From assembly GCA_902592265.1 (NCBI GenBank), contig CACJDV010000002.1, forward strand, positions 24,622-88,621: DNA of 64,000 nucleotides. Direction: 5' to 3'. The position numbers and the translations under genes were made by a program. The stretch is from an uncultured Pelagibacteraceae bacterium. GTDB taxonomy: Bacteria; Pseudomonadota; Alphaproteobacteria; Pelagibacterales; Pelagibacteraceae. Of this stretch, positions 26,534 to 35,557 are shown piece after piece (the stretch's first letter is position 1; every line of letters starts with the position of its first letter). The notes below the pieces were generated by a model. The model did not search any database, was not told where the DNA came from, and saw only the letters and a program-made list of their open reading frames with translations.

Positions 26534-26609
26534 TGGTGGGCAGTAAAGGACTCGAACCTTTGACCCCCTCGGTGTAAACGAGATGCTCTACCAACTGAGC
26601 TAACCGCCC
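26534..26609 (-). tRNA. tRNA-Val (anticodon UAC), rebuilt by the integrated element
   Basis: 76-nt cloverleaf with encoded CCA. The acceptor GGGCGGT pairs with the 3' ACTGCCC, the D-arm is GCTCAGTTGGTAGAGC, and the anticodon loop TTTACAC gives UAC. The 5' half (26571-26609) is duplicated at 35399-35437. The element entered near the anticodon loop, so the present 5' half and everything upstream, including the promoter, come from the element. Confidence 0.97.
26571..26609. repeat. Attachment site, tRNA-side copy (39-bp direct repeat)
   Basis: Identical to 35399-35437. It covers the tRNA-Val 5' end through the anticodon loop. Flanks differ on both sides apart from a short AACCAAA similarity, so the crossover lies within these 39 bases, probably in the anticodon stem-loop. 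Confidence 0.93.
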
Positions 26610-26627
26610 AAAACCAAATAACGCAAG

Positions 26628-26656: not shown

Positions 26657-26696
26657 TAAATGGATTGTGGAGTTTTGAGTACATCTGTGAACATTT

Positions 26697-26718
26697 TGCG
26701 TAGACAATGCGTAGATGG
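26697..26718 (+). repeat. Integrase arm-type repeat, left copy 1
   Basis: Two TGCGTAGA octamers separated by 3 bases, followed by TGG. The same composite occurs at 26742-26762 and 35293-35314, always in the same orientation and only near the element ends, as expected for arm-type integrase or excisionase binding sites. Confidence 0.6.
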
Positions 26719-26741
26719 TTTTGTCATTCAAAATTTGTTTT

Positions 26742-26762
26742 TGCGTAGACGATGCGTAGATC
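26742..26762 (+). repeat. Integrase arm-type repeat, left copy 2
   Basis: Second composite of two TGCGTAGA octamers with a 3-base gap (CGA in place of CAA). It begins 45 bases after copy 1 and lies about 90 bases upstream of the integrase start. Confidence 0.6.
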
Positions 26763-26775
26763 AAAACGAATTAAT

Positions 26776-26848: not shown

Positions 26849-28252
26849 ATGACTAAAATCGGACACAACGAACCGCCTAAAACTTTAGATGATTTTTTAA
26901 TTAAAGATCAAAATGAAAAAAGTACAGGGCGAATTAAATTAACAAACACAATCATTAAAAAATATTTAATAAAAAAATATGATGCAGCTAACGATAAGTA
27001 TTTGCCGCAAACTGCAAATGATAGTGAAAAAATTGGATTAAAAGTTAGAGCTAATATCGGTGGTTCTAAATCTTTTTATTATAAGCATGATCCAAAAGGA
27101 AAAACTATAAATGGTAAAAGACATAATTCAGTTTTTTATCATTTAGGAAATTTTCCTGAAATGTCAGTAGATAGTGCAAGATCATTAGTAGATGATTTAA
27201 AGCACGCAATTAAACTTGGTCAAGATCCAAGATCAGTGCTGGAAGAAAGAAGAAAAGCGAAAACATTGTCAGAGGTTATAGATCTATGGAAAGAAAAAGA
27301 TTTATATAAATCAACTAGGTTCGCTGCATCTACAATCAAAGATACTGAACAAAGATTAATGAATTGGATTGATTTAAAAGCATATAAACCAAGTACAAAT
27401 AAAATTATTGCTGCCAATTACAATGATCTAAAAATTGGATCTAAAAGGATGATTGAAATAACTAAATCTGATTTAATCGCATGGCACGCAGCTATAACAA
27501 AGGCTGGTTCATACCAGGCCAATAGATGTATGGATGATATGTCAATTATCTTTAATTGGGCTTTAGAAGAAAAGATAATCAAAGAAAATATTTGTAAGTT
27601 CAAGAAAAGCGAATTGAATGAGGAAAGCGATAGATTAGACGATGTTGATCCTTATTCACTTGTTGAATGGCGATTGATTAGAAAAGCTACAATGAAAATA
27701 ATTAAAAAAGAACCAAGAGTATTTTTAGCAGCAATGGCGATCCTATTGTATTTATATTGTGGTCGTAGATATAAATCAGAGATCTTAAACCTTAAATGGA
27801 ACCAGGTTGATTGGGATGCAAATATAATTAGATTACCAAAAACTAAAACGGGTAAATCTCAATTCTCAATTAACAAAATGTCTAGATGGGTATTGCGTCA
27901 GCTTTGGAAATATAACAAAGAAAATTTCAAAGGTAAGAAAGCTAAAACAATAAAAGCTGCGTATTTATTTCCAGCAACAAGAAAATCTAAAAAACCATAC
28001 ATCCAAGATATTAGAAAAACTTGGGTTAAAGTTTGTAAGTTAGCAAATGTAAGAATAGAGGAATTAGTTTTGTTAAGACATACTTGGGCCTGTCTTGCAT
28101 TAATAGCATCAAACGGAAATATTAAACTTGTTAAAGATGAGGGCGGTTGGAAAACTTATAAGATGGTTGAACGATATGCCAAGTATAACGAGAGATATTT
28201 ACAAAAAGGATCGGAAGTTATTGGAAATTACTTTGCCCGTGCAAAAGCATAA
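26849..28252 (+). CDS. int: Tyrosine recombinase / integrase (P4-like)
   Basis: Site-specific recombinase for integration into and excision from tRNA-Val, 467 residues. The N-terminal half (about 40-140) resembles the arm-binding domain of P4-type integrases (LKVRANIGGSKSFYYKHD, HLGNFPEMSVDSAR), then a core-binding SAM-like region. The catalytic part has Arg in CGRRYKSEILNLKW (about residue 306), Lys in PKTKTGKSQF, LVLLRHTWACLAL, then GGWKTYKMVERYAKYN with the Tyr nucleophile. Two features are odd: the HxxR box has Val where His is usual, and the later His is Trp (Trp is known in Cre). The start is preceded by AAAAAGGAAATATTATT. The gene lies next to the left att site, as usual for integrases. 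Confidence 0.95.
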   Translation: MTKIGHNEPPKTLDDFLIKDQNEKSTGRIKLTNTIIKKYLIKKYDAANDKYLPQTANDSEKIGLKVRANIGGSKSFYYKHDPKGKTINGKRHNSVFYHLGNFPEMSVDSARSLVDDLKHAIKLGQDPRSVLEERRKAKTLSEVIDLWKEKDLYKSTRFAASTIKDTEQRLMNWIDLKAYKPSTNKIIAANYNDLKIGSKRMIEITKSDLIAWHAAITKAGSYQANRCMDDMSIIFNWALEEKIIKENICKFKKSELNEESDRLDDVDPYSLVEWRLIRKATMKIIKKEPRVFLAAMAILLYLYCGRRYKSEILNLKWNQVDWDANIIRLPKTKTGKSQFSINKMSRWVLRQLWKYNKENFKGKKAKTIKAAYLFPATRKSKKPYIQDIRKTWVKVCKLANVRIEELVLLRHTWACLALIASNGNIKLVKDEGGWKTYKMVERYAKYNERYLQKGSEVIGNYFARAKA

Positions 28253-28321: not shown

Positions 28322-28840
28322 ATGAGCAGCATACTTGGTAAAGGTATCGGATCGCTAATTTTAAAAGATTATGTTGATTGGAAAAAGATACAAAACATTG
28401 CTAGACGAAACGGGATTTATACTGCTGCTGGAGTAGCAAAATTAATCATTGAACATTCCCCTATAAAATCTGTTGGCGAAATGAAATTACAATGGGCCAA
28501 AAGAATTTATTTAGCTCAACAAAAGAACAAAGATGCATCGCTATATTCAATCTTAAAAGATGATTTAGAAGTATTAGAATTCTTGCTCGGCCATGATCCG
28601 TTGTTAATTCATTGGGGTGCAGAGTGGGAAAAAGCATTAACCAAGAAAAAAGTAAAAATTACTCGGGCTAAATTAAAACCTTATTCTAAATGCATTGAAC
28701 ACCACAGAAAAAAATACAATGAGTTCTTGGCAAAAAATAAAAAATTTTTTACTGATTGGCTGCATGAGAATAAACGGGATGATGAGTTTGATACATTCAT
28801 AATTAAACTTGAAAGAGCTATTAAGAAAAAAAGATATTAA
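28322..28840 (+). CDS. Unknown basic helical protein of the element
   Basis: 172 residues, lysine-rich, predicted mostly helical by eye, without a motif I recognise. The C-terminal third (EHHRKKYNEFLAKNKKFFTDWLHEN...ERAIKKKRY) could bind nucleic acid. The ribosome-binding site CAGGAGTTATTATTA is almost the same as that of the gene at 30655, which argues that both are genuine and expressed as element genes. It lies between integrase and the HTH gene, where satellites often place regulators. Function unknown. Confidence 0.75.
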   Translation: MSSILGKGIGSLILKDYVDWKKIQNIARRNGIYTAAGVAKLIIEHSPIKSVGEMKLQWAKRIYLAQQKNKDASLYSILKDDLEVLEFLLGHDPLLIHWGAEWEKALTKKKVKITRAKLKPYSKCIEHHRKKYNEFLAKNKKFFTDWLHENKRDDEFDTFIIKLERAIKKKRY

Positions 28841-28915: not shown

Positions 28916-29122
28916 ATGAGCAGTGAAACAAATAACAATTCAGTTTGGACAGATACCAAAGGGATCGCCAAACATTTTAATCTTAAACCAGCAACAATCC
29001 GTAAGCAAAGATCTAAACAAGTAAAAAATCAGCTGCCGTTTCATAAGATCGGTGGCCAGGTTAGATACAATGTAATCGAATGTGAAAAGGAAGTAGAGGC
29101 AAATAAATATGCGTACAAGTAA
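28916..29122 (+). CDS. Small helix-turn-helix protein, excisionase/AlpA-like
   Basis: 68 residues. The core WTDTKGIAKHFNLKPATIRKQR...LPFHKIGGQVRYNVIECEKEV fits the MerR/excisionase-type winged HTH (HTH_17 or AlpA style), with a recognition helix at about residues 24-33 and a VRY wing. Such proteins act as excisionase or as activators of integrase-region promoters. No strong Shine-Dalgarno sequence is visible, and the frame is open upstream to the previous stop without another start codon. It overlaps the next gene by 14 bases. Confidence 0.85.
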   Translation: MSSETNNNSVWTDTKGIAKHFNLKPATIRKQRSKQVKNQLPFHKIGGQVRYNVIECEKEVEANKYAYK

Positions 29123-29558
29123 AACTATCAAGGATCCAACATTCAATATCTATCGTAGAGGTGGCAGTGTTGAAAAAGCAATGGAAAGCAAAGGCGATGG
29201 AAAAGCTAAAGAAGAATTAATGCAATTAGCAAAGGATGAAAAAGATATTTTATTCGATGTTGAAAGTGAGATTACAGATATTCTTTTAGACAATTACAAC
29301 AAAGAGAAAAAACCAGGTCAAAGTTTTTTAGATTGGCTTGGTACCAAAGACAGAGAATATTTAATCAAGATACCTTTAGGCTTGGCCAGCGGTGGAAAAG
29401 TAATTTCTATTTCTGAATATTTAAAACAAAAAGAAAAACCTAGAATTAAAAAATTAAATCTTGATGCAGTTGCACCAGGAAAAGCATTATCAGAATTAAC
29501 AGATGCAGAAAGGGAAGTTGTTAGAAATCTATTGCGGATGACTTTTGGCCAAGATTAA
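29109..29558 (+). CDS. Unknown element protein
   Basis: 149 residues, acidic and lysine-rich. I recognise no family. Visible are a helical first half and GGKVISISEYLKQKEKPRIKKLNLDAVAPGK, followed by a helical end ELTDAEREVVRNLLRMTFG. The start lies inside the HTH gene and the stop shares a base with the next start (TAATG), so it is translated as part of a coupled chain. Confidence 0.75.
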   Translation: MRTSKTIKDPTFNIYRRGGSVEKAMESKGDGKAKEELMQLAKDEKDILFDVESEITDILLDNYNKEKKPGQSFLDWLGTKDREYLIKIPLGLASGGKVISISEYLKQKEKPRIKKLNLDAVAPGKALSELTDAEREVVRNLLRMTFGQD

Positions 29559-30229
29559 TGAAACCAAGTGAATACAAACAAATGATGGAATATTTAACTA
29601 GGCCCAAACAAAAACCAAGAGAATTTGAAAAAGCAGATAATTCGCCAGTGATGGTTAGCAACGGGGAAATTATGACAGAAAATCAATTTAAAAAATCTTT
29701 ACCATTAGAAGATCAGCCTGGATATGATCCTGATAAAGATCCAAATTTATTAAGAAGAATTAAATATTATCAGGGCGAAGAATTAGGGGCTGAATTTGAT
29801 AGAGCTATCGCAGAAGAAGATAAAGCATTAAAAAAACTTGGCAGAGATCCCGCAAACATCTTACAGAGAAATAGAAAAGTTCAGCCGTTAGTTCCTAAAA
29901 GAGCAACAACAAAACAGATGGTTGAGCTGAAAGGTAAAATAGATAAATATAAAAAAGTTCATTTTCCAAAAGAAGAAAAACCATTTACAAAAATTGCAAA
30001 GAACCTGGGTAAGAACAAAGAGTTTAAAAAAGAAAGTTTTAAATTAGATCCTTTACCTCAAATAGATTTTAGCACTATTGCACCACCAAAGACTAGAACA
30101 CCTGAAGAAATTGCAATGGAGCAAAGGTTCAATGAGCTTTTAAGAAAACAGAATGAGGAAAAAGTTAGAAACGCAACAACGGGATTAGCTGGTCTTGTTG
30201 GCGGCGATCCTTTTACAAAATTAAAATGA
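29558..30229 (+). CDS. Unknown element protein, charged and proline-rich
   Basis: 223 residues, no recognised family. The middle is rich in Lys, Pro and Gln (YLTRPKQKPREFEKAD; PLVPKRATTKQMVELKGK), and the end has a helix (TPEEIAMEQRFNELLRKQNEEKV) then a small GLAGLVGGDPF tail. Such linkers and helices suit a scaffold or an adaptor, for example a capsid- or packaging-modifying factor, but that is speculation. Start and stop overlap both neighbours (TAATG and ATGA). Confidence 0.75.
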   Translation: MKPSEYKQMMEYLTRPKQKPREFEKADNSPVMVSNGEIMTENQFKKSLPLEDQPGYDPDKDPNLLRRIKYYQGEELGAEFDRAIAEEDKALKKLGRDPANILQRNRKVQPLVPKRATTKQMVELKGKIDKYKKVHFPKEEKPFTKIAKNLGKNKEFKKESFKLDPLPQIDFSTIAPPKTRTPEEIAMEQRFNELLRKQNEEKVRNATTGLAGLVGGDPFTKLK

Positions 30230-30462
30230 ATAAATATGAATTGAAATATATGCTGGAACAGATGAGCAGCTCCGTTGATAGATTAACGGATGTAGCTGGA
30301 AAGCAGCAGCATCATATATCAGAGTTGTGGGAAGAAATAGGCCATAAGAATACAAAGATCCAAAAGCTAACAGAAAAAAATTATGAATTAGCGAGTGTCA
30401 TTCGAGGGCAAAGAGAAAAAGATTTAGCTGAAAAATATTGGGATGAAAGGATTGATAACTGA
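30226..30462 (+). CDS. Small coiled-coil protein of the element
   Basis: 78 residues. A long amphipathic helix runs over about residues 4-70 (YMLEQMSSSVDRLTDVAGKQQHHISELWEE...IQKLTEKNYELASVIRG) with heptad spacing of hydrophobic residues. It begins by ATGA overlap and ends by ATGA-like overlap with the 55-residue gene after it. The next protein is also a short helix with a similar layout, so the pair may associate. Confidence 0.7.
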   Translation: MNKYELKYMLEQMSSSVDRLTDVAGKQQHHISELWEEIGHKNTKIQKLTEKNYELASVIRGQREKDLAEKYWDERIDN

Positions 30463-30629
30463 TGACTAAAAAAGATTGGCTGCCCGATGTTAAAAAATTA
30501 ATGAAAATAGTTGAGCATCAAAAGCAAAGATTACATGACCAGGATTGGTTGATCCATAACCTGATTACAACAATAGACAAAATTCGTAGCGATGAGCTGC
30601 CGAATAAAAAGGAAAATAATTTGAATTAA
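30462..30629 (+). CDS. Very small helical protein of the element (55 residues)
   Basis: Starts MTKKDWLPDVKKLMKIVEHQ and is predicted to be one helix with His, Gln and Trp positions that echo the preceding coiled-coil protein (MLEQM...QHHISELWEE versus LMKIVEHQKQRLHDQDWLI). It may be a diverged duplicate or a partner. The ATG overlaps the preceding TGA (TGATG), and the stop lies 25 bases before the next gene, so it fills an otherwise empty gap in the coupled chain. Confidence 0.65.
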   Translation: MTKKDWLPDVKKLMKIVEHQKQRLHDQDWLIHNLITTIDKIRSDELPNKKENNLN

Positions 30630-30654: not shown

Positions 30655-31305
30655 ATGTCGAATATTTTCAAACTTAATCAAGTCGTATCTAAAAATAAAT
30701 ACAACAAAGGAATAGCAGCAACACAAAGATTTGATGTTGTTGATCTTGGTAAGCCTGGGCCTGATGATTGGTTCAAGTTATATACATTCGATCAGCAAGG
30801 ATTAGATAATTTTCAGCCTTGTATGATTAGCAGAGTTAAAGATCCCGAGGGTAAGTTAAACCCCTATTTAATTGGTGGTTCAGAGGATTTTAAGGCTGCT
30901 TGTGCAGAGAAACTACCAAGAATTCAAGATGTTCATCTAGCATACGGAATAACAACGCATAAGAGATTATTTATTTGGCCCGTTGTTTATTTAGAAGATC
31001 TTAACGAGGGGATTGGTTGGCATATATCCGCTTGTGAAATTGCTAATGCAGCATTTACAAGATGGACACAGATAAGATCAGATAAACCAAATAGCAGATA
31101 TATTCATTTGGATTTAGACGATCAAGATCAGGTTCCAAAAGAAAAAGTTTTTGAAACACCACCTATTGATTATGAAACTGCCGTAAACAAAGCATTTAAA
31201 AATAGATACATAGGCAGCGAAGATCATCCTGTTTTTAAAAATGCTGGTTCAGTTTTAGAAACTAACTTTCAGAAAAAAACAATGAAAGGAATTATTAAAT
31301 CATGA
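30655..31305 (+). CDS. Unknown element protein upstream of the DNA polymerase
   Basis: 216 residues with no family I can name. It has mixed beta and alpha character, with many aromatic residues in the middle (DDWFKLYTFDQQGLDNFQPCM; KRLFIWPVVYLEDLNEGIGWHIS) and an acidic patch HLDLDDQDQ. The ribosome-binding site AAGGAGTTATTATT is the best in the element and suggests high expression. Its place before the polymerase makes a replication accessory such as a single-strand DNA-binding protein a reasonable guess, not a demonstrated one. The end overlaps the next start. Confidence 0.75.
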   Translation: MSNIFKLNQVVSKNKYNKGIAATQRFDVVDLGKPGPDDWFKLYTFDQQGLDNFQPCMISRVKDPEGKLNPYLIGGSEDFKAACAEKLPRIQDVHLAYGITTHKRLFIWPVVYLEDLNEGIGWHISACEIANAAFTRWTQIRSDKPNSRYIHLDLDDQDQVPKEKVFETPPIDYETAVNKAFKNRYIGSEDHPVFKNAGSVLETNFQKKTMKGIIKS

Positions 31306-31547
31306 GTAGAGATCATATTAGAGTTATTGACGATTATAGACACTGCCATGAGAATGAATTCTTTTTTACATACGATCCAAGAAAAACTTCAGGAACAAAG
31401 CAGCTAATGGAATATTTAGAAAATAATTTTGATATTGAATTTCAAGATATTCCAGGTTGGCAAATTAAATCAGTGGTCGTTAATACTTATGGCAATTACG
31501 AAGATAGGGAAAAGTTTGGGATAAGAGTAATTAGAAATGATTGTTGA
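31302..31547 (+). CDS. Unknown small element protein
   Basis: 81 residues with HIRVIDDYRHCHENEFFFTYDPRKTSG at the start and a strand-rich end (WQIKSVVVNTYGNYEDREKFGIRVI). No recognised family. It overlaps the preceding gene (ATGA) and the polymerase gene by 11 bases, so it is translated together with the polymerase. Confidence 0.7.
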   Translation: MSRDHIRVIDDYRHCHENEFFFTYDPRKTSGTKQLMEYLENNFDIEFQDIPGWQIKSVVVNTYGNYEDREKFGIRVIRNDC

Positions 31548-33390
31548 TACTCTTAAAGAAAATTTTGATTATCTTTGTGTCGTAGATACTGAATTCAAAG
31601 GCCAGCAAGATGAGGGCCAACTCAATGATCCTGTTTGCGTTGTTATCAAAGAATTAAAATCAGGTCAGTATCATAAGTTCCACGGCCCGAAATTAAAGCT
31701 GCCCTATCCACCCAACAAAACATTATGGATTGCTCACAATGTAATTGCAGAGGCCCATACATTTTTAAGTTATGGATTAAAGCTGCCGAAATATTGGTGG
31801 GATACTTTCATTGAAGATAAGAAATTAAATTTTGGCAAAGTCGCTAGACACTCGTTGCTAGCGGCTTGTGGCAGATACGGAATACAAACTATTTCAGAGG
31901 ATCTAAAAAAGTATTTCATTAATAAAATAATTTTACCTAATGAAACTTATACCCAGGATCAAATGTCCAAGATCCTTGAATATTGTACCAGCGATGTTGA
32001 TGCTGGAGCTGCACTATTCCTGGAGCAATGCAAAGAAATTGAAAAAGTAAAAAAATTTGATGGCCCTGAAATGATAATTAGTCAGGCCCTATTCAGTGGA
32101 GCTGCGGTTGCTTGCACGGCCAAGGTTGAGTTCAACGGGAACCATGTAAACAATGAGCTGCTAAAAAAGATTGATGATGCTTTTCCTTATGTGAAAAGAA
32201 AAATAATTGATGAATTAAATGCTGAATTAGATGTTTACGAAAACGATGTTTTAAAACAAGATAAGTTTGATACCTGGATCGAGCATATTGGTTTAGCTGA
32301 TGTATGGCCTCTAACAATTACAGGACAATATAAAACAGATGAAAAAACTTTAGAAACTTACAAAGATGCTCATCCTGATGTTAGAAAATTTAAACTAGCC
32401 CAGGAGTTTATAGGTTCTAGAAAATTAAAAGGTTTTATTGTTGGGCCTGATAAGAAAGCAAGATGCAGTTATAGGATGTATGGATTAAAAACGGGAAGAA
32501 CAAATCCATCAACAGCAAAGCATCCTTTCAATGCTCCAAAGGCAATGAGAAATTTAATCAAAGCTCCTGATAAAAATAAAATCAGTGTTAATTTTGATTA
32601 CAGATCGCAAGAGGTTGCAATAGCAGCTTATCTTTCCCAAGATCCAAATATGATGGCAGCGGTTCAAAAGACAGATCCGTATATTTACATTGCACAAATA
32701 AACAAAGCAGCTCCCGATGGTGCAACAAAGAAAACGCATAAGGTAATTAGAAATCTTTATAAGACCACAACACTTGCAGCTCTATATGGTCAGGGTGCCG
32801 TGAATATGTCTAAACGAATGAATTTAATAATTGATTATGGCCAAGAGTTATTTGTAAAAATTAAAAATACTTTTCCAACTTATTTTGCCTGGGCCAAGAC
32901 TATGTTTGATAAAGCAATAGTTAATGGTTATGCCGAAACAAAATATGGATGGCGATATTATTTTAAACCTGGCGAATTATATAATCCAAGAACCTTTTAT
33001 AATTTTCCTATTCAGGCCCATGGTTCAGAGATGCTGCGTAGAGCTTTAATTGATTTAACTTTTGCTGGTATTGAAGTTAATGCACTAATTCACGATGGAA
33101 TTGTAATTACACTAAATAAGAAAAATTTTAGAAAAGAATTTATTCAGGCTAAAGAAATATTAATCAATGCATCAAAAGCAATCCTGAATGAAGATAGCAG
33201 CACTGATTATTATTGCGATGTAGATTTCCAAATTATTAGATCAGGAATGATACAAGAGCCTGCGGATCAAAATAAATTTAATAGGATCATTGAATTAACG
33301 AATGAGTTTAACCTAGGGAATAATTCCAGGGGTACCCAAGGAACAAAGTCAGCCCCGTGGATAGATATTAATATTAATAAATATAATTAG
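31537..33390 (+). CDS. Family A DNA polymerase with 3'-5' exonuclease domain
   Basis: 617 residues, similar in layout to phage T7-type and PolA polymerases. The exonuclease domain shows VVDTEFKG (Exo I, DxE; about residues 16-23), AHNVIAEAHTF (Exo II, Asp replaced) and YCTSDVDAG (Exo III, YxxxD). Polymerase motif A is NFDYRSQEVAIAAYLSQD (about 350), motif B RNLYKTTTLAALYGQG (about 404-419), and motif C is LIHDGIV (about 518), where the usual HDE has become HDG; the catalytic Asp is kept. No 5'-nuclease domain. It probably copies the element's own DNA after excision, with helicase and primase supplied by helper or host. Confidence 0.93.
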   Translation: MIVDTLKENFDYLCVVDTEFKGQQDEGQLNDPVCVVIKELKSGQYHKFHGPKLKLPYPPNKTLWIAHNVIAEAHTFLSYGLKLPKYWWDTFIEDKKLNFGKVARHSLLAACGRYGIQTISEDLKKYFINKIILPNETYTQDQMSKILEYCTSDVDAGAALFLEQCKEIEKVKKFDGPEMIISQALFSGAAVACTAKVEFNGNHVNNELLKKIDDAFPYVKRKIIDELNAELDVYENDVLKQDKFDTWIEHIGLADVWPLTITGQYKTDEKTLETYKDAHPDVRKFKLAQEFIGSRKLKGFIVGPDKKARCSYRMYGLKTGRTNPSTAKHPFNAPKAMRNLIKAPDKNKISVNFDYRSQEVAIAAYLSQDPNMMAAVQKTDPYIYIAQINKAAPDGATKKTHKVIRNLYKTTTLAALYGQGAVNMSKRMNLIIDYGQELFVKIKNTFPTYFAWAKTMFDKAIVNGYAETKYGWRYYFKPGELYNPRTFYNFPIQAHGSEMLRRALIDLTFAGIEVNALIHDGIVITLNKKNFRKEFIQAKEILINASKAILNEDSSTDYYCDVDFQIIRSGMIQEPADQNKFNRIIELTNEFNLGNNSRGTQGTKSAPWIDININKYN

Positions 33391-33396
33391 GTATGT

Positions 33397-33726
33397 ATGC
33401 AGATAGACAAAACCAAAGTGAAAGAATTATTTATAGCTGGCAGTTTAAATCCCGCTATTGCAATGTTGTTCAGGGCCAAAGCTGGTATGCCTGGTCTATT
33501 AATTTATTTGTATGTGAAATGGCGATTAGGATTTCCGCATTACATGACAAAGCAAAAAAGAACCTGGATAAAATTAGACAATGTATCAATGGAAAAATAC
33601 GGGTTCGGTATGGATCCAAAAACCAAGAACAAAGCACTGCGAAAATTGGACAGAGAAAAATTAATTCAACTGCACTTGCTAGAAAATTCAGGCAAGGCTC
33701 CACAAGTGAGGTTATTAACTAAATGA
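33397..33726 (+). CDS. Winged-helix-like protein preceding TerS
   Basis: 109 residues. The second half, WIKLDNVSMEKYGFG followed by NKALRKLDREKLIQLHLLEN and APQVRLLTK, has the pattern of a winged helix (helix, recognition helix, two-strand wing). A DNA-binding role in transcription or replication fits. The stop overlaps the TerS start (ATGA). A parallel frame at 33393-33722 is open too, but its product is cysteine-rich and low in plausibility, so this frame is preferred. Confidence 0.75.
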   Translation: MQIDKTKVKELFIAGSLNPAIAMLFRAKAGMPGLLIYLYVKWRLGFPHYMTKQKRTWIKLDNVSMEKYGFGMDPKTKNKALRKLDREKLIQLHLLENSGKAPQVRLLTK

Positions 33727-34286
33727 CAAAAGAAATAGATAAGCAGCTAGATGACAAAGAAAAAAAGCTGCGTAAGAAAATTGAAAAGCAAGTAGAGAAT
33801 AAAAAATACCAAGATAAGATAACACCTATTCAGCAAAAGTTTATTGAGAATTACACTAGCAAATATGGTCAATGGTCAGCGACGCAATGTGCGATAGCAG
33901 CTGGCTATTCGCCGTCATCGGCCCATACAAGAGCTGCTGAATTATTAGATTGGCGAAAGCATCCTGATATTGCAATCGAGATCCAAGATCGGTTGGCTGC
34001 GTTGCGTGAGGCTTGGGATGTGAACAGAGATAAACATTTAGCAATGCTGGTTAAGATCCGTGATGCGTCAATGGAAAAAGGTATGTATGGAGTGGCTAAC
34101 AAAGCAGAGGAGCTGCGGGGCAAAGTAGCTGGATTATATGTTGAAAGAAATCTTACACTTACAAAAGAATTATCAAACGAGGACTTGCACGATAAGATGA
34201 AAGAAATATTTCCAACGAAAGAGGCTTTTCTAGCGGGCCAACGGGATATTATGAAAGATCTATTTCCTGATGATGACGAGGAGTAA
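33723..34286 (+). CDS. terS: Phage terminase small subunit (TerS)
   Basis: 187 residues. The segment ITPIQQKFIENYTS...SATQCAIAAGYSPSSAHTRAAELLDWRKHPDIAIEIQDRL (about 27-82) is the Terminase_2 DNA-binding signature with its HTH; a helical oligomerization part and an acidic C-terminus (LFPDDDEE) follow. TerS recognises the packaging start site and hands DNA to TerL. No TerL or structural gene lies in the element, so it must work with the large terminase of another phage, redirecting packaging to the element's DNA. A charged coiled-coil extension (about 1-25) precedes the HTH. Last gene of the rightward chain. Confidence 0.88.
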   Translation: MTKEIDKQLDDKEKKLRKKIEKQVENKKYQDKITPIQQKFIENYTSKYGQWSATQCAIAAGYSPSSAHTRAAELLDWRKHPDIAIEIQDRLAALREAWDVNRDKHLAMLVKIRDASMEKGMYGVANKAEELRGKVAGLYVERNLTLTKELSNEDLHDKMKEIFPTKEAFLAGQRDIMKDLFPDDDEE

Positions 34287-34618
34287 AAGTTTTTGGAGCT
34301 GGTCAAGAGGCGGTTAAAACTATGATCCAAGATCCCTGAATAATAGGTTGTTGCACTAGATTTAACTATATTTGAAATCCAGCCTTGAACCATGAATAAG
34401 GATCTGTTATTGAAATTTTATTAATAATAATTCCACCTTTAGCTGCTGTTTTCCATTATTCAGTGGCTAAAGGTTTTTTTTATTTTAGGGCTGGACATAG
34501 CTGGACTGAATGTAGGCAAATGTAGGCCTGAAAGTAACCCAATGTTACCCACCCCGTTTCTCGATTATTTAATTATAGCAACACTAATTTGAAATTTTTG
34601 ACAAGGTAACCTGGTTGC
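34287..34618. other. Non-coding stretch after TerS with terminator and short repeats
   Basis: No credible coding frame. It holds the terminator at 34435-34481 and a cluster of short direct and inverted repeats at 34489-34622. It could include the site recognised by TerS or a replication origin. Confidence 0.6.
34435..34481 (+). terminator. Rho-independent terminator after TerS
   Basis: ACCTTTAGC (34435-34443) pairs with GCTAAAGGT (34466-34474), a 9-bp stem with a 22-base loop, followed by eight T. It ends the rightward transcript of the element. Confidence 0.75.
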
Positions 34619-34622
34619 CTAC
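34489..34622. repeat. Cluster of short repeats, candidate packaging or origin site
   Basis: Direct pairs GCTGGAC (34490 and 34500 area), TGTAGGC (34511 and 34521 area) and the GTAACCC / GTTACCC inverted-type pair (34534-34550), with GTAGGCAA answered by the inverse TTGCCTAC at 34615-34622. Iterated short motifs directly after terS are typical of pac or origin sequences. Confidence 0.4.
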
Positions 34623-34828
34623 TTGGCGATAACTTGTTTTGCGTTTGCGTGATAGCAGCTCTTGCAAATAGAACCTTTAGAATATTCAAACTCACTAAAC
34701 ATTAAAACGAAATCTGTCCGTGCAATCTCTGTACGATCCCCGCCGCAAAAGATACATCTATCAATTTCAACATTCTCAAATAATGATTGGTGGTTCTCTT
34801 TTCCTGATGCGTTTTGCCAAGATGACAT
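34619..34828 (-). CDS. Small zinc-ribbon protein, only antisense gene of the element
   Basis: 69 residues with two CxxC pairs: CIFCGGDR (about 25-32) and SICKSCYHANAK (about 53-64), a treble-clef or zinc-ribbon pattern. A promoter with near-consensus boxes (34836-34864) starts transcription at or next to the ATG, so the mRNA may be leaderless. Opposite orientation and its own strong promoter suggest expression in the integrated state, as for a maintenance, immunity or anti-phage gene. No family recognised beyond the zinc pattern. Confidence 0.75.
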   Translation of the reverse strand: MSSWQNASGKENHQSLFENVEIDRCIFCGGDRTEIARTDFVLMFSEFEYSKGSICKSCYHANAKQVIAK

Positions 34829-35248: not shown

Positions 35249-35292
35249 TAAGATAAGGAAAATAAGGAATAATTGATCCTAGAACGATCCGT

Positions 35293-35314
35293 TGCGTAGA
35301 TAATGCGTAGATGG
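35293..35314 (+). repeat. Integrase arm-type repeat, right copy
   Basis: Two TGCGTAGA octamers separated by TAA and followed by TGG, nearly identical to 26697-26718 and in the same direction. It lies 85 bases inside the right att site. Confidence 0.6.
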
Positions 35315-35398
35315 CTTGATTTACTATTCCATCATTGATAGTCTATTAGTGTTGTGATTGCTTGTGTAAATGAAGATTTAATTTATTTGAGCTAGGTG

Positions 35399-35437
35399 GG
35401 TGTAAACGAGATGCTCTACCAACTGAGCTAACCGCCC
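35399..35437. repeat. Attachment site, distal copy (tRNA-Val 5' half remnant)
   Basis: Identical 39 bp to 26571-26609. It is the original chromosomal 5' half of tRNA-Val, now cut off from its 3' half. It cannot form a tRNA. Confidence 0.93.
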
Positions 35438-35557
35438 TTAACCAAAATTAGTGATTTTTATATCTTTTATGATAATTACGCAAGATATTTTAAATCATTT
35501 AATCTAGCAAAAATTAATAATTATTTTATTATAATCAAATATACAAACTAGTAGAAT
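35438..35557. promoter_or_regulatory. Original tRNA-Val promoter region, now orphaned
   Basis: On the minus strand TTGCGT (35483-35478) and TATAAA (35462-35457) are 15 bases apart, and the -10 box is 20 bases before the tRNA remnant, much the same placement as in the element-borne promoter. Transcription from here would run through the half-tRNA into the right end of the element. No gene in this gap. Confidence 0.35.

Follow-up and report, generated by a model that had tools for sequence, protein, structure and literature searches.

The DNA analysed here, a 64,000-nucleotide stretch referred to below as the window, holds an integrated SAR11 element of 8,828 bp, measured as the spacing from attL to attR. 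The features of the element and its ends are listed below from left to right; the related elements by which conservation is judged are described further on.

26571-26618: attL, 48 nt, a direct repeat 96% identical to attR, overlapping tRNA-Val (26534-26609, minus strand)
26696-26766: arm-type integrase repeats, TGCGTAGA doublets, near attL
26849-28252, plus strand: tyrosine integrase, with Arm-DNA-bind_3 and Phage_integrase matches
28322-28840, plus strand: protein without a family match; related elements have a gene at the same place, between int and xis
28916-29122, plus strand: small HTH protein of 68 aa, putative excisionase/regulator (weak HTH_17 and phrog_66 matches), position conserved
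29109-29558, plus strand: o4, no assigned function, conserved in G036, G291 and L007 and also in L063, the second satellite type
29558-30229, plus strand: o5, no assigned function, position conserved, sequence weakly so
30226-30629, plus strand: two small ORFs of 78 and 55 aa, the first conserved in G036 and G291
30655-31305, plus strand: 216-aa protein, no assigned function; a relative always lies upstream of the polymerase
31302-31547, plus strand: 81-aa protein, no assigned function, 34% identical to its G036 counterpart
31537-33390, plus strand: family-A DNA polymerase with an N-terminal exonuclease-like region (DNA_pol_A 2.6e-21, phrog_17 4.2e-33)
33397-33726, plus strand: small winged-helix-like protein (weak), position conserved, 25-31% identity
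33723-34286, plus strand: small terminase subunit (TerS), 187 aa, with residues 32-82 (33816-33968) forming the HTH DNA-binding part
34285-34334, plus strand: conserved DNA element of ~45 bp at the 3' end of terS, a candidate for the packaging site or for another cis function
34435-34482, plus strand: intrinsic terminator (z -7.0)
34487-34622: short repeat doublets, above chance, earlier suggested as pac
34619-34828, minus strand: CxxC...CxxC protein, 69 aa, convergent with terS; all related elements seen complete carry it at their right end
35292-35317: arm-type integrase repeat near attR, third copy
35399-35446: attR, direct repeat partner of attL

The unoccupied form of the site was found in G014 and G033, where the two flanks are contiguous over 364 bp at 97% and 373 bp at 90% identity, respectively. 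The GC content is 33.8% within the element compared with 29.6-30.6% outside. In the polymerase, the catalytic residues Asp354 and Asp520 are invariant in the alignment. Its motif C reads HDG, and HDA in relatives, in place of the HDE usual for family A, with both catalytic aspartates retained. The predicted structure of the 216-aa protein reached a pLDDT of 35. No primase or rep match was obtained among the ten element proteins scanned, a PADLOC scan of seven element proteins gave no match to a defence system, and in Rfam nothing but two tRNAs exceeded the gathering score.

A small terminase subunit without a large one

The ORF at 33723-34286 is confirmed as a full-length Terminase_2-type TerS. 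It matched Pfam Terminase_2 at 5.5e-10 (40.5 bits against a gathering cut-off of 26.1) and the terminase small subunit family phrog_51 at 1.5e-14, while a profile built from its family recovered the SF6 TerS structures 3zqp and 2cmp at 7e-7 and 7e-6. The AlphaFold model is all-helical with a mean pLDDT of 83.9; SF6 DNA-binding domains align with its N-terminal part at TMt 0.85-0.87 but with Foldseek E values of ~0.07, and its named matches in the viral library were mostly terminase small subunits. Profile and model predict an HTH DNA-binding domain at the N-terminus and, behind it, a helical part for oligomerisation. The start of terS overlaps the stop of the preceding ORF (ATGA), and terS is the final plus-strand gene in a co-directional chain, so that profile matches and gene order agree with the preliminary description, in which a Terminase_2-type small subunit stood last in its gene chain.

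Neither TerL nor portal had been seen near this gene, and the observation extends to the whole att-bounded element, among the genes of which Pfam and phrog profiles recognised no TerL, portal or capsid; the same profiles recognised no lytic or P4-like capsid-size genes in the element proteins. In the rest of the genome, an assembly that is 85.7% complete, neither Terminase_6N (for which positive controls matched) nor the HTVC027P-type TerL gave a match. Separation of the two subunits proves nothing by itself, because terS of the phages HTVC027P and 023Pt also lies on the opposite strand and away from terL, at about 4.7 kb (L005 13818-20513) and about 3 kb (L006 10404-15492), respectively. The orphan status of TerS therefore rests on the absence of TerL from the whole att-bounded element and not on non-adjacency.

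Related elements and the ancestry of TerS

When 397 genomes of the order were searched with a polymerase profile, five further elements came to light, in G291, G303, G455, G150 and G129. The gene order of the window recurs in G036 (behind lpd, 8,811 bp), in G291 (also behind lpd) and in G303 (at tRNA-Met, 8,881 bp), whereas G455 (at tRNA-Thr, 8,930 bp) and G150 (at tRNA-Arg, 9,915 bp, spanning the record origin) are without TerS, the latter in a complete genome; the G129 element is interrupted by a contig end. In the genome of G303 a third copy of the tRNA-Met att repeat lies ~7 kb past the satellite (L094 10618-17700), which suggests a second island inserted in tandem. The whole-genome catalogues used are incomplete for SAR11. 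Among viral contigs, no close relatives were found with the single TerS, the CxxC pair or the polymerase pair as query, and deeper alignments were needed.

A circular form of the same family was found in L007, an IMG/VR contig of 9,177 bp, the catalogue entry being no proof of a virion. Its exact 99-bp terminal repeat implies a circle of 9,078 bp, and its attP core AATACACTCTTAATTAATTTC is the one found in the attB at lpd in G036 and G291. The integrases of L007 and G036 are 63% identical. Satellites in SAR11 have repeatedly used the 3' end of lpd for attachment (L004 4374-4394 and 13185-13205; L095 4617; L007 1526). Together with the window, G036, G291 and G303, this contig makes up the five TerS-bearing elements, none of which has TerL. 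A second circular satellite-like contig, L063 (1-5998), has a 123-bp terminal repeat and a length of 5,875 bp, and encodes a tyrosine recombinase, an AAA_25 protein, an o4 homologue and a TerS placed on the pelagiphage side of the tree, with no TerL. When 158 related TerS loci from viral contigs and phages were inspected, phage TerL, portal, capsid or replication genes accompanied 73, and the only small circles were these two contigs.

In the TerS-less elements the corresponding slot is empty in G150 and is filled in G455 by two unrelated ORFs. The latter (L097 7800-8649) encode proteins of 177 and 116 aa, the longer one resembling excisionase/MerR proteins at its N-terminus (weak matches); PADLOC gave a weak mad1 match to the slot protein (8e-4), and a different packaging or control module at this place is possible. 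TerS is consequently not universal in the wider lineage, and the complete genome of G150 shows that this lineage has other solutions. The CxxC protein is also present in G150 and G455, and in a distant version in L063. Its identity among the window, G036 and G291 is 77-87%, while their polymerases are 35-48% identical.

In the TerS tree, the five satellite proteins form one clade with support 100/100, on a long branch apart from the TerS of HTVC023P-type and related phages; the branch of 023Pt is very long and its placement unsure. The five elements likewise form one clade (99/97) in the polymerase tree, in which the branching order matches that of TerS and the satellite enzyme is far from pelagiphage PolA. 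Values of dN for TerS were 0.2-0.6 with dS mostly saturated, and omega was 0.16 between G036 and L007. TerS is thus under purifying selection and co-inherited with the polymerase. The agreement of the two trees marks it as an inherited core gene and not phage debris, and the slow amino-acid relative to synonymous change also argues for a maintained function. Outside the satellites, the nearest TerS are those of pelagiphages, at 35-40% identity, for example HTVC027P gp29 at 35%; the closest homologues are therefore not all non-phage proteins, the outcome that the preliminary description had named as speaking against its proposal.

Comparison of the window TerS with 38 phage TerS gave identities of 40% for residues 32-82 (the HTH), 24% for 83-112 and 35% for 113-145 (the oligomerisation region), and 19% for the C-terminal part. 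It had been expected that the HTH would diverge while the part contacting TerL was kept; this was not observed, the HTH being the best-conserved region, a result that is informative but not final. Within the oligomerisation region, A125, E129, G133, G137 and Y139 are common to the window TerS and the phages. The charged N-terminal helix (residues 11-30) and the short acidic C-terminal tail, for which a role in tuning contact with TerL had been put forward, are indeed present but vary among satellite TerS: the N-terminal extension is common to the window and G303 and absent from the three others, and tail length lies anywhere between a few residues and an extended charged stretch. Charged C-terminal tails are seen in some phage TerS too.

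At the 3' end of terS, a conserved DNA element begins with AAAAGTTTTTGGAGCTnnnCAAGAGGCGG at 34285-34313, at or just over the stop codon, and reaches ~34334. The window, G303 and L007 share its pattern TTTTTGGAGCTnnnCAAGAGGCGG letter for letter; none of 2000 shuffles aligned as well to G303, L007 and G291, and the G303 copy aligns significantly with G036. With zero mismatches, the element occurs across the 397 genomes of the order solely at the terS 3' end of the window genome and of G303, and it is absent from 2.9 million viral contigs apart from L007. On sequence grounds it is a candidate packaging site. It may also serve something else, such as replication or RNA roles, because it is partly kept in the TerS-less G150. 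A pac shared with HTVC023P-type phages was rejected, since the element is found neither at the TerS of HTVC027P nor in viral contigs beyond L007. Also rejected was the idea that translation runs past the terS stop into the FLEL-KRR codons that follow in frame, as indels in the G036 copy disrupt that frame.

Farther downstream, the terminator noted earlier behind TerS was borne out as a hairpin at 34435-34474, with a stability of -20.6 kcal/mol reached by none of 200 shuffles and a U tract next to it. The cluster of short repeats that follows had been proposed as the element's own pac site. It does exceed chance, its 4 close 7-mer doublets being attained in 3 of 3000 shuffles, but the compared sequences of relatives hold no counterpart save a similar doublet in G455, and because the repeats are not conserved the region is unsupported as pac.

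Proposed packaging route and its rivals

The best-supported reading, to which a probability of roughly 0.7 is given, is that TerS belongs to the core genes of a family of ~8.8-9.1-kb SAR11 phage satellites and redirects the packaging of a helper pelagiphage. Redirection by an orphan TerS, as originally proposed, thus survives on the strength of the satellite, the TerS without TerL and its inheritance, while the accompanying details of HTH divergence and pac repeats do not. The occurrence of TerS without TerL in L063, a different circle, supports the satellite reading. Counting against it are the distance to the nearest phage TerS, at 35-40% identity on a long branch, the related elements that lack TerS and the partial retention of the 3' element in one of them, and the sample of TerS-bearing elements, five in all, is small. 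Upon infection by a helper pelagiphage, the element would excise as a circle through its own integrase and putative excisionase, and would then replicate with its own family-A polymerase and host or phage factors. It would also make its own TerS, which would bind a site on satellite DNA and recruit the TerL of the helper, so that satellite concatemers would fill helper procapsids. Dependence on a helper, recruitment of TerL, headful packaging of concatemers and a recognition site are what we infer here. There is precedent in SaPIs, in which the satellite TerS directs helper packaging to satellite DNA (PMC6092414). The genome of HTVC023P-type phages averages about 58.8 kb (PMC9599517), which would leave room for about six to seven units of the satellite, provided that concatemers fill the capsid as they do in PICMI (PMC10803314).

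An alternative of low probability is that the satellite TerS interferes, mixing or competing with the TerS ring of the helper and forming no complete terminase with TerL. Such a role has a precedent in Rpp of E. coli PICIs, which has a TerS DNA-binding domain and acts by complexing helper TerS (PMC6739421), and the HTH is the part of the satellite protein most like phage TerS. The SaPI-like route is nevertheless favoured over the Rpp-like one because the protein retains the full TerS length and shares residues of the oligomerisation region with phages. Co-option of TerS, as a regulator or as a replication or partition protein of an integrative, plasmid-like element that phages do not package, is quite unlikely. 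The DNA polymerase of the element and the relatives that manage without TerS would suit this role, but a regulator would have no use for the whole TerS architecture, a TerS lacking a TerL partner turns up again in a different satellite type, and both circles were drawn from a viral-contig catalogue. Survival of one end (int ... pol, terS) of a decayed prophage is very improbable: although family-A polymerase and TerS are phage-type and HTVC023P-type phages have both, diverged elements keep a near-constant length and gene set while sitting at different att sites, a closed circle has them too, the ORFs are intact and selected, neither att nor arm sites are damaged, pelagiphage PolA is only distantly related to the polymerase, and among 50,697 phage records nothing usable matched the 216-aa protein, o4, o5 or the CxxC protein.

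SAR11 bacteria rank among the most abundant of the ocean, with pelagiphages a main cause of their death. If redirection by the satellite TerS is correct, satellites that steal pelagiphage packaging would bear on the yield of phages, on the transfer of genes and on how many virus-like particles are counted. A testable set is at hand in this family, comprising the TerS clade, the candidate recognition element, the TerS-less relatives as controls and HTVC023P-type phages as possible helper. A wider and distinctly tentative proposal is that these elements represent a SAR11 satellite lineage that has its own DNA polymerase but lacks a recognisable primase, helicase or capsid, and whose packaging module can be exchanged in the slot between the winged-helix and CxxC genes (the TerS clade, other genes in G455, or nothing in G150) and the cognate 3' cis element of the TerS clade might redirect pelagiphage TerL.

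Comparison with known satellites

SaPI-type PICIs of Staphylococcus aureus resemble the element as integrated islands with an integrase, no structural or lytic genes and a satellite TerS (PMC6092414), redirection of a helper being conjectural in SAR11. PICIs measure about 12-15 kb (PMC6092414), whereas the SAR11 family spans 8.8-9.1 kb; four elements measured 8,811-8,930 bp and that of the TerS-less G150 9,915 bp. A family-A DNA polymerase stands in place of a recognisable primase/rep module, TerS is last in one co-directional chain, and the host is SAR11. As to an AlpA/MerR-type or divergent regulator, the element has a co-directional 68-aa HTH protein whose HTH_17 and phrog_66 matches are weak. 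Judged by size and primase/rep module as read from its sequence, the element is not a PICI. The integrase, att repeats, empty site and TerS, together with the absence of structural or lytic genes, agree with what is generally understood by a marine phage satellite.

VEIMEs and tycheposons, said to have been described by Eppley in 2022 and Hackl in 2023, are reportedly tyrosine-recombinase islands of marine bacterioplankton, many of them thought to be phage-packaged satellites. VEIMEs are reported to exist both as concatemers within marine virions and as integrated elements of bacterioplankton genomes. The SAR11 element is similarly a tyrosine-recombinase island of an ocean bacterium, known here in integrated form and as a circular contig, and its family may already be among the catalogued VEIMEs or tycheposons. 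To judge from titles and abstracts, a literature search for Pelagibacter and phage satellites returned no paper on SAR11 satellites. PICMI of Vibrionaceae, reported in a paper that, like a review, also names both VEIMEs and tycheposons, is a small marine satellite that depends on a virulent phage and is packaged as a concatemer; it lies at fis and carries int, alpA and prim with no terS homologue (PMC10803314). The SAR11 element is likewise small and marine, and by analogy only might be packaged as a concatemer. It differs from the PICMI definition in lying at tRNA-Val, in having TerS and a polymerase and in giving no primase match.

P4-like satellites share an integrase with the element, in which no P4-like capsid-size genes were recognised. 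A cfPICI encodes capsid, portal, TerL and TerS; the SAR11 element is also a phage satellite with an integrase but has TerS alone, with no capsid, portal or TerL. The TerS of HTVC023P-type phages (HTVC027P gp29) is similar in being a Terminase_2 protein of a SAR11 virus, at the 35% identity given above, and in not being adjacent to TerL, whereas the satellite TerS belongs to its separate clade and the phage has TerL and capsid in the same genome.
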